This document shows positions 1,169 to 47,239 of a DNA stretch of 64,000 bases, piece after piece. Position 1 is the stretch's first letter. Every line of letters begins with the position of its first letter. The notes below the pieces were generated by a model, which saw only the letters and a program-made list of their open reading frames with translations, made no database searches and was not told where the DNA came from. The translations under genes were made by a program, and so were the position numbers. The stretch is from a bacterium (GTDB lineage Bacteria; CLD3; SB21): contig JABWCP010000014.1 of NCBI GenBank assembly GCA_013360215.1, positions 8,687 to 72,686 on the forward strand. Direction: 5' to 3'.

Positions 1169-1195
1169 TTGACTTTCATGCGCCGTTTATATAAT
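1169..1195 (+). promoter_or_regulatory. Candidate sigma-70-type promoter of the BMC operon
   Basis: TTGACT (1169-1174) and a consensus TATAAT (1190-1195), separated by 15 bases, which is shorter than the usual 17. The position, about 60 bases upstream of the first shell-protein start and after the leader terminator, fits the operon promoter. The short spacer makes this a tentative call. Confidence 0.4.
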
Positions 1196-1254
1196 ATCGA
1201 ATACTATTTTGCACACTTGATGTCCTATCTCAATATTTTCTAGGAGGAATTTCC

Positions 1255-1539
1255 ATGGCTCTGGATGCATTAGGCATGGTAGAAACCAAAGGTTTGGTCG
1301 GCGCAATCGAAGCCGCTGACGCGATGGTCAAAGCCGCAAAAGTCGAATTAATCGGCAAAGAAAAAATCGGCGGTGGTTACGTGACCGTCATGGTACGTGG
1401 CGATGTCGGCGCTGTAAAAGCAGCTACCGATGCCGGCGCTGCAGCAGCAGAAAAAGTCGGCGAACTGGTTTCCGTCCACGTCATTCCGCGTCCGCATCCG
1501 GAAGTGGAACTTATTCTTCCCAAAAAAGGCTCCAACTAA
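1255..1539 (+). CDS. BMC-H shell protein (PduA/EutM/CcmK family), first copy
   Basis: A 94-residue single BMC domain, the usual length for a hexamer-forming microcompartment shell protein. Family marks are [19 protein letters not shown] at the N-terminus (residues 5-23), the G-x-V-x-A turn in [17 protein letters not shown], and the conserved C-terminal HVIPRPH. Six copies should make a flat hexagonal tile with a central pore. The pore loop probably falls in the KEKIGGG segment, residues 36-42. The start is supported by AGGAGG at 1242-1247. It is followed after 18 bases by a second BMC-H gene. No encapsulated enzyme, pentamer (BMC-P) or trimer (BMC-T) gene lies nearby, so this is a satellite shell locus. 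Confidence 0.93.
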
Positions 1540-1557: not shown

Positions 1558-1890
1558 ATGGCAGATGAACGTGCATTAGGAATGGTGGAAACGCTCGGAT
1601 TGGTCGGTGCGATCGAAGCCGCAGACGCTATGATCAAAGCTTCCAATGTCAAACTGATCGGCAAAGAAATAACCGATGGTGCCATGATCACGATCAAAGT
1701 GGTCGGCGAAGTAGGCGCTGTACAAGCCTCTGTGTCCGCCGGTGAAGCCGCTGCACGTCGTGTAGGACAAGTCGTTTCCGTTCATATTATACCGCGTCCG
1801 GATGCAATGACGGAATCCATCATCTATGATGAAGGATTGGTAGAAGCTCCGAGCGGCGGCACGGGCTCAAAAAAAAAACTGAACGCCTGA
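1558..1890 (+). CDS. BMC-H shell protein, second copy, with a frameshift-prone tail
   Basis: 110 residues as read: a BMC domain (residues about 5-83, ending HIIPRPD) plus a tail. It is clearly paralogous to the upstream shell protein (shared [19 protein letters not shown] and VGEVGAV-ASVSAGEAAA blocks), so the pair arose by tandem duplication. The pore segment differs (KEITDGAM instead of KEKIGGG), suggesting a different pore. The ribosome-binding site is weak; expression may be coupled to the first gene. The frame closes at a TGA just after ten A (1869-1878), giving Lys-Lys-Lys-Leu-Asn-Ala-stop. The -1 frame is open for another 78 codons (see the next feature). Confidence 0.9.
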   Translation: MADERALGMVETLGLVGAIEAADAMIKASNVKLIGKEITDGAMITIKVVGEVGAVQASVSAGEAAARRVGQVVSVHIIPRPDAMTESIIYDEGLVEAPSGGTGSKKKLNA

Positions 1891-2114
1891 CGCTTGCGCA
1901 GCAAGATCTGTTTAAGGGTGTTCAAAAAGGCGAATCCATACTTAAGAAGAAAAAGTTAGTTGTTCCTGAAACCGATTATCATGAGTTCAGCGTTTCGGAA
2001 CTTCGGCATTATGCACGGTCTGTTCCCAATTTCCCGCTAAAAGGCCGCGAAATTTCCAAAGCCAACCGGGATATGCTGATCGAAGAACTGGATAAAATAA
2101 TTCCTAAAAAATAA
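1878..2114 (+). CDS. Out-of-frame C-terminal extension of the second shell protein (SAP/Rho_N-like helical domain)
   Basis: The -1 frame is open from 1833 and reads through the ten-A run to a TAA at 2112-2114, adding 78 residues. It has no ATG, GTG or TTG start with a ribosome-binding site before the coding-like part. It shows strong protein character: a Lys-rich linker (GESILKKKKLVVPETD) followed by FSVSELRHYARSVPNFPLKG and REISKANRDMLIEELDKII. That helix - extended loop - helix resembles Rho_N/SAP-type nucleic-acid-binding domains. A -1 ribosomal shift, or one extra A in the transcript or in the true sequence, would give a continuous 185-residue shell-extension fusion. The operon terminator begins at this stop codon, so the extension lies within the transcript. 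It could be a programmed shift, a recent frameshift mutation or an assembly error in the homopolymer. Confidence 0.6.
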   Translation, partial: TERLTLAQQDLFKGVQKGESILKKKKLVVPETDYHEFSVSELRHYARSVPNFPLKGREISKANRDMLIEELDKIIPKK

Positions 2115-2147
2115 ACACCCTGAACATCCTTCAGGGTGTTCTTTTTT
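2114..2147 (+). terminator. Terminator of the BMC operon
   Basis: Stem AACACCCTGAA (2114-2124) / TTCAGGGTGTT (2130-2140), followed by CTTTTTT. It begins at the stop codon of the out-of-frame extension, so the transcript covers both shell genes and the extension. Confidence 0.9.
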
Positions 2148-2167: not shown

Positions 2168-3658
2168 ATGTTTAAATTGCCCGAATGGCTTCTGCGTGCC
2201 GACCGGCGAATTCAGGAGCTTAATCTCTTTCGCCGGATCTTCATCATGATGTTTCCGCTCATGATCGCGGCGATTGGTGTATTTGAAATCACCATACGCT
2301 GGTTTGATATCCACGCTATCGAGTACGCACACATATGGATCATACTAATTCCGCTTATTTTTTCTATCATCATATCGTATTTATCGGCTCGATTTACCGC
2401 GAAAGAAGTTGCCCATCCTATCAAACTCTTCATCGAAAGCGCCAAAGCCATCGCGCGTGGTAATTTTGATCACAAGGTCAATGTGCATACCAGCGAAGAA
2501 ATGACTCAGCTTTCGCGCATTTTTAACTATATGACCCGTGAATTGAAAGAGATCAATCAGGGCAACATCCGAAAAACAATCCAAGAAAAAATTAAGACCG
2601 AAGCCATCATTCGCAATATTGCCGACGGTATTATCGTGGTCGGCCCGCTGAATGAAGTTCTGATGATCAATGAAGTGGTCGAAGGATGGTTTCATGTACA
2701 ACAAAAAGCCGTCATCGGTTTTTCGCTCAATTTTTTCTTTCCCGAACTCAAATTTCTCGTGAAACAGGCGCTTGACACACAAGGCGAAACGGTTTTTCAG
2801 GACGAACTTACGATCAAGCCGCTCAATAGCCCCTCGGAAATCTATCTCGGTGCCAATGCTTCCAAAGTCATGGATAACGACGATCTGATTGCTTTGGTTA
2901 TTGTTCTTAGAAATATTACGAAAGAAAAAGAAATTGATCGGATGAAAACCGAACTGGTGAATGTCGTCGCCCATGAACTGCGCTCACCGTTGACCAGTAT
3001 CGCCGGTTTCAGTGAAATCATCAAAGATCCGCATTTATCGGAAGCCATTCGTAAAGAATACATTGATATTATCCACTACGAATCCGGTCGTTTAGCTGAA
3101 ATGATTTCCAAGTTTCTGGACATCAGTCGCATTGAAAGCGGTAAAACGGTTATCAATAAAGTCCCATGCGATCTTACCACGGTTGTAGATAACACCATCA
3201 CCGCCAACACACCGATGGCTCAAAAGCGCAGCATGCACGTCAGCAGCACATTGCCCAAATGGGTTCCTCTGGTTCACGCCGATCCCGACCTGATCGGTCA
3301 GGTCGTACTCAATTTCTTTTCCAATGCCGTGAAATACAGCCCCGAAGGTTCAGAGATCAAACTGCGTGTCGCGGTCGCGGATGATACGGTGATCGTGGAA
3401 GTGTCCGATAACGGCTACGGTATATCCAAAGAGAATATGAAACATCTGTTTCAGAAATTTTTTCGCGCTAAAGATGAGAAACATGTGAAAGATGTGGAAG
3501 GCACCGGTTTGGGATTGGCGTTCGTCAAAGAAATCATCCATCAGCACAATGGTACCATACATGTCGAGAGCGAAGTCGGAAAAGGTTCTTCTTTTTCGTT
3601 TGCCCTGCCGATTGATTTTACACTGCCGGAAAATGCTGCGCTCAAACCCGCTTCATGA
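2168..3658 (+). CDS. Membrane-bound sensor histidine kinase (HAMP-PAS-HisKA-HATPase)
   Basis: 496 residues. Two membrane helices (about 24-44 and 55-75) enclose a very short outer loop, so there is hardly any periplasmic sensor domain. A HAMP region follows (78-130), then a PAS-like domain (145-250). The dimerisation/phosphoacceptor helix has VVAHELRSPLTS with His269. The ATPase domain has the N box NFFSNAVKYSPEG (Asn386), G1 DNGYG (414-418) and G2 GTGLGL (445-450). The domain order is that of WalK/PhoR-type kinases, and all catalytic motifs are intact. No response regulator is adjacent, so it is an orphan kinase. No clear Shine-Dalgarno precedes the ATG. Its 3' end converges on the ABC exporter gene with only 8 bases between stops. 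Confidence 0.92.
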   Translation: MFKLPEWLLRADRRIQELNLFRRIFIMMFPLMIAAIGVFEITIRWFDIHAIEYAHIWIILIPLIFSIIISYLSARFTAKEVAHPIKLFIESAKAIARGNFDHKVNVHTSEEMTQLSRIFNYMTRELKEINQGNIRKTIQEKIKTEAIIRNIADGIIVVGPLNEVLMINEVVEGWFHVQQKAVIGFSLNFFFPELKFLVKQALDTQGETVFQDELTIKPLNSPSEIYLGANASKVMDNDDLIALVIVLRNITKEKEIDRMKTELVNVVAHELRSPLTSIAGFSEIIKDPHLSEAIRKEYIDIIHYESGRLAEMISKFLDISRIESGKTVINKVPCDLTTVVDNTITANTPMAQKRSMHVSSTLPKWVPLVHADPDLIGQVVLNFFSNAVKYSPEGSEIKLRVAVADDTVIVEVSDNGYGISKENMKHLFQKFFRAKDEKHVKDVEGTGLGLAFVKEIIHQHNGTIHVESEVGKGSSFSFALPIDFTLPENAALKPAS

Positions 3659-47164: not shown

Positions 47165-47166
47165 TG

Positions 47167-47239
47167 TGCGTCCACAAGGAATCGAACCTTGAACCTAATG
47201 ATTAAGAGTCATTTGCTCTGCCAATTGAGCTATGGACGC
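47167..47239 (-). tRNA. tRNA-Lys (anticodon CTT)
   Basis: 73 nt on the minus strand. Acceptor GCGTCCA / TGGACGC, D arm GCTC / GAGC, anticodon stem AATGA / TCATT with loop CTCTTAA giving anticodon CTT, T arm CAAGG / CCTTG with TTCGATT, discriminator A. No CCA encoded. Reads AAG lysine codons. Confidence 0.95.

Follow-up and report, generated by a model that had tools for sequence, protein, structure and literature searches.

The BMC-H shell gene BMC-H2 probably gives rise to two proteins, a plain shell tile and a tile with a C-terminal tail, through slippage of RNA polymerase on a run of ten adenines (A10); both the mechanism and the two products are deduced from the sequence and its conservation in related genomes. 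The window, which is the whole stretch of 64,000 nucleotides analyzed here, is part of contig C14 of a 3.72-Mb genome assembled in 56 contigs, in which A10 is scarce (13 sites). BMC-H1 and BMC-H2 are arranged in tandem, in this order, with one promoter-like site upstream, and the locus comprises the following features:

1169–1197, forward strand: predicted sigma-70-like promoter of the BMC-H1/H2/tail transcript, from a consensus scan
1255–1539, forward strand: BMC-H1, a plain shell tile of 94 aa (Pfam BMC, E 4.5e-30)
1558–1890, forward strand: BMC-H2 in the zero frame, the short form of 110 aa, as an open frame (Pfam BMC, E 9.3e-24)
1869–1878, forward strand: A10, the candidate slippage site, found without change of length or position in six genomes of the family
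1878–2114, forward strand: the -1-frame tail of 78 codons, closed by TAA (2112–2114); joined to the BMC-H2 part it makes a 185-aa fusion
1890–1955, forward strand: family-specific linker TLAQQDLFKGVQKGESILKKKK (TLAQQDLFK...ESILKKKK), from alignments A3 and A7
1974–2099, forward strand: putative SAP/HeH/Rho_N-like helix-loop-helix domain, from profile matches, an AF2 model and sub-threshold Pfam matches
2114–2140, forward strand: intrinsic terminator adjoining the tail stop, an 11-pair stem followed by a T run

BMC-H2 belongs to the BMC-H type by its single PF00936 domain (residues 6–81; 83.6 bits against a gathering cut-off of 24.5), and orthologues of BMC-H1, ~80–98% identical, precede H2 in most relatives. 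A TTGACTTTCA/TTGACTTTCG box followed by a TA-rich -10 element was also recognized by eye 5' of BMC-H1 in the other family genomes. At the other end of the transcript, the tail stops where the operon terminator begins, as had been noted earlier from the sequence, with the TAA at 2112–2114 and the stem-loop starting at 2114; a stem and T run likewise lie directly 3' of the tail stop in G002 and G004. An Rfam scan around the operon gave no match near a gathering score. Just 5' of the BMC promoter, positions 1030–1120 of the window hold compact stem-loops with a strong terminator at their end, which match no Rfam family and have no counterpart upstream of BMC-H1 in the other family genomes. Directly past the operon terminator lies a sensor histidine kinase gene (2168–3658), and this adjacency is kept in several family genomes.

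The zero frame passes the junction as TCA AAA AAA AAA CTG AAC GCC TGA and ends after 110 aa. The sequence bears out the description given in the earlier note, namely A10 at 1869–1878 and a -1 frame of 78 codons without a start codon: no ATG, GTG or TTG occurs in the tail frame of the window until near its far end. The open -1 frame alone was rejected as evidence, because shifted open frames this long are not rare in the window (14 of 92 gene-end/frame combinations); the evidence is its conservation. By sequence, BMC-H2 shows the layout of a slippage gene, with a run of at least nine A/T before a conserved out-of-frame coding region.

The family set consists of seven genomes that carry both BMC-H genes, the window's included; all are drafts, and those with names are metagenome assemblies (MAGs). 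The junction is readable in six of them (G000–G005, four genera), while in G006 (G006:C599) a string of N masks the last part of BMC-H2 together with the tail. Each of the six separate assemblies has exactly ten adenines with the tail shifted to -1, whereas genomes outside the family encode it in frame, which answers the question about orthologues raised by the first reading. The run starts in phase 2 in three genomes (junction TCA-AAA-AAA-AAA-CTG in G000, G002 and G004) and in phase 0 in the other three (NNT-AAA-AAA-AAA-ATG in G001, G003 and G005), and thus sits one base apart in codon register from genus to genus while its length is still ten, so that an A lost on one side has been offset by an A gained on the other. 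The tail-frame TAA overlaps the first adenines of the run in G001, G003 and G005, and the zero-frame stop comes within a few codons past the run in all six genomes, which together confine the shift to the A run. In seven of seven genomes (the six of the family and the sister-family genome G007), each of the two frames other than that of the tail promptly meets a stop, so that any slip would yield one of two size classes. A tree of BMC domains is consistent with the A10 type having arisen once, with weak support (67/0).

Substitution patterns identify the tail as a protein under purifying selection. Its pN/pS values are 0.28–0.44 between genera and 0.05–0.06 within genera, with third positions varying most, while the BMC head is tighter still (0.00–0.19); the tail frame contains no stop in any of the six tails, and the zero frame across the same region contains three to six. 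The view of the tail as real coding sequence is therefore upheld by purifying selection, by intact frames in relatives and by in-frame homologues elsewhere. Codon choice also differs along the tail frame. All 18 codons for the three junction lysines are AAA, while AAG accounts for 12 of the 24 codons in the conserved K4 tract. A Fisher test gives P 0.0003, or 0.008 when each genus is represented by a single genome, values that serve as guides as the genomes are related. A certain excess of A at KKK is to be expected, because AAA is the favored lysine codon (814 of the 1003 lysine codons in the window). The K4 tract, at 1944–1955 in the window, is always broken by at least one AAG here and in the relatives, a pattern that looks like avoidance of another slippery run.

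In the proposed mechanism, RNA polymerase would slip on A10 near the 3' end of BMC-H2. Messages with A10, A9, A12 or A13 would reach a stop a few codons further on, yielding a short tile of ~110 aa (11.2 kDa), while messages with A11 or A8 would enter the -1 frame and give a fusion of 184–185 aa (19.9 kDa) that carries the basic linker and the SAP-like domain. With a slippage site in front of the tail, tailed tiles would form a set minority in the window family, while distant bacteria encode them openly.

The same pair of proteins could also be made from an unaltered mRNA if ribosomes underwent programmed -1 frameshifting at the sequence A AAA AAA, and such a heptamer lies within the run, in the right phase, in all six genomes. 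Recoding of this kind has a BMC precedent in csoS2, with ~50% -1 shifting (PMC5009743); E. coli dnaX is a further example. We nevertheless regard a ribosomal shift as unlikely at this site. No conserved stem was found downstream (consensus -2.0 kcal/mol; single folds with z from -1.1 to +1.2), and the possible hairpin CTTGC/GCAAG noted earlier did not stand as a signal, being part of a larger fold with a z of -1.1 against shuffled sequences and not conserved. Inspection by eye revealed no conserved Shine-Dalgarno-like box just upstream, and synonymous codons downstream of the run vary freely. Ten adenines exceed what a ribosome needs but suit the 9–10-bp RNA–DNA hybrid of the polymerase. Because the run is kept at ten whatever its phase, no stem is conserved, synonymous change downstream is free and bacterial polymerase slippage is established at runs of at least nine A/T (PMC5009743), slippage is the preferred mechanism, while both mechanisms would give the same protein. 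In Thermus, a second lysine tRNA for AAG has been linked to slippage and not to ribosomal shifting (PMC5009743). The window encodes its own tRNA for AAG, tRNA-Lys(CTT), at 47166–47239, which fits slippage and proves little.

The sister-family genome G007 carries an A11 run at the same junction (CCT-A11-TGAAAAC; L042 8383–8393, G007:C141), with the tail in frame, and a transcript of this gene lacking one A would end in PKKKMKT-stop. Homopolymers are known sites of phase variation (PMC3711429), and the occurrence of A10 in the window family and of in-frame A11 in the sister family could be taken to mean that the DNA itself gains and loses adenines at the run, so that the tail is turned on or off from cell to cell. 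We give this only a slim chance, as a mixture of lengths would be expected, whereas all six family genomes have exactly ten adenines, the off state, and as a tail that is often off should show weaker constraint than a pN/pS near 0.3. With polymerase slippage as the preferred reading, the A11 of G007 represents a possible mirror arrangement, seen in one genome only, in which the fusion would be the default and slippage might be used in the mirror-image way.

A sequencing or assembly error, with a true run of A11 and a plain fusion gene, has to be considered where every genome is a draft, and the earlier note had asked for it to be excluded. It is scarcely credible here, as one A would have to be dropped identically in six assemblies with differing flanks and phase, and as the run of G007 was assembled as A11, so that assemblers do not generally trim such runs to ten. 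On the strength of the same A10 in six assemblies from four genera and of this A11, the frameshift is conserved and not an assembly error. Least credible of all is separate re-initiation of the tail, or its being an eroding relic of a former fusion gene: termination–reinitiation is conceivable because the stop of the short form lies only a few codons past the beginning of the tail region, but in the window the tail frame does not open with an ATG, GTG or TTG, in G001 none of these appears until about residue 35, and conserved residues start right behind the run in tails that are free of stops and under strong constraint.

Outside the family, the tail occurs as a regular part of shell proteins. 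A profile of its last 45 residues matched in 17 of 386 genomes at E ≤ 1e-4, in all cases on BMC-H genes, and the phylum to which one of the profile-matched genomes belongs yielded two further tailed genomes. Thirteen genomes from at least nine families outside that of the window (G007, G059, G117, G125, G165, G201, G262, G266, G289, G328, G332, G386 and G387) encode a BMC-H protein whose C-terminal part is the tail, without any change of frame. These distant genes have the same domain order as the window gene, and most of them stand directly behind a plain BMC-H partner ~80–98% identical to BMC-H1; in contrast to the window family, they have no frameshift, no long A run (except in G007) and no lysine-rich linker. 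The latter, a basic stretch between the run and the domain, is absent from both the sister family and the distant fusions, and a contig scan with tail patterns, which were placed in this family-specific linker, returned three MAG contigs only, which correspond in size and content to the G004, G005 and G001 records. In several distant genomes an acylating aldehyde dehydrogenase gene comes next after the tailed gene. Judged by these in-frame homologues, the tail is a real, standard domain of a widespread type of H2 shell protein, among which the window family stands out by its A10 frameshift. The loci L077–L086, L116 and L117 seem to represent a BMC-H type that is widespread and as yet unnamed, bears a SAP-like domain at its C terminus and is paired in tandem with a highly conserved plain BMC-H, often ahead of an acylating aldehyde dehydrogenase gene.

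The tail is basic, with a computed pI of 9.8 and a charge of about +7, and AlphaFold2 models it with three helices (15–24, 32–37 and 40–50) and a pLDDT of 86–90 over the core. Pfam gave no SAP, HeH or Rho_N match on the tail of the window, while distant members showed sub-threshold matches to HeH (0.0024), Rho_N (0.0024), SAP (0.0082) and Fan1_SAP (0.05–0.07). The initial guess of a SAP/Rho_N-like fold thus keeps weak support from the sub-threshold SAP, HeH/LEM and Rho_N matches and the confident three-helix model, but gains none from fold searches against the PDB with Foldseek and VIA, which returned no significant match, an absence that is not itself evidence. A PDB sequence search with the tail returned only spectrin and other chance-level matches.

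The proposed arrangement resembles several known systems. In Citrobacter rodentium tssM1, an A11 run slips at 20–25%, and both forms and their ratio are needed; the tssM1/tssM3 pair has opposite defaults, with slippage measured at 15–25% (PMC4256274). Like the gene described here, C. rodentium tssM1 and Yersinia pseudotuberculosis tssM3 have an A run near the stop, long and short forms, no ribosomal signals, and lineages in which either the short or the long form is the default. They differ in encoding a secretion-system protein, in the A11 run and in that slippage was proven by mass spectrometry of cDNA, whereas here it is deduced from conservation. Thermus thermophilus dnaX likewise combines slippage at nine A/T with nearby stops in the other frames (PMC5009743), but is an unrelated protein made in its long form by default. 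The CsoS2A/CsoS2B pair of alpha-carboxysomes shows that one microcompartment gene can give two C-terminal forms by recoding (PMC5009743), although CsoS2 is a scaffold and not a shell tile, its shift shortens the protein and the recoding is ribosomal, not transcriptional. EutK, as a BMC-H tile with a basic C-terminal domain resembling nucleic-acid-binding ones (PMC12058022, PMC12487888), is similar to the predicted long form, but its tail belongs to another family (PF16365) and is encoded in frame as a single product. Neither the window tail nor any A3/A6 member matched PF16365 even at E ≤ 10, and BMC-H2 scored 73.4 bits with the NCBIfam EutK model, over the BMC part only, against an equivalog cut-off of 218, and thus does not qualify as EutK by these tests. 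Slippage, tailed BMC-H tiles and recoding of a carboxysome scaffold are already known; what would be new, as far as the open-access literature shows, is a shell tile dosed by slippage, and we found no report there of a shell tile produced in two forms in this way.

The termini of BMC-H proteins can lie on the concave face (PMC5534457), where the tail would probably be displayed and might bind DNA or RNA, tethering or positioning the compartment. Loss of EutK mislocalizes Eut compartments, and PduK also affects location (PMC12058022, PMC12487888). The SAP-like matches, the basic character of the tail, the concave-face termini and the part played by EutK in Eut distribution make positioning by nucleoid tethering a reasonable possibility, held with less than even confidence, and the tail may have other roles, e.g., recruitment of cargo or enzymes. 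More tentatively still, slippage may set the share of nucleoid-binding tiles, the mix of plain and DNA-tethering subunits per hexamer or facet resulting in a low, fixed number of anchors, with opposite defaults, A10 and A11, in the sister lineages. Should the proposal hold, it would explain how a bulky functional tail can be dosed among many tiles without a second gene, and the BMC-H type with a SAP-like tail would open further lineages to tests of metabolosome positioning. Standard gene prediction would list the short form alone and overlook the tail.

RpiB and a DeoC-type aldolase are the signature pair of sugar-phosphate (SPU) compartments (PMC8217296). In the genome of the window, the aldolase is encoded on C4, and RpiB, PduS and BMC-T are found together on C8; read from these scattered loci, the compartment is likely of the sugar-phosphate (SPU-like) type. 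The genes on C8 (L035 5533–9029, G000:C8) stand in one row and encode RpiB, a tryptophan 2,3-dioxygenase-like protein, a PduS-like protein and BMC-T.
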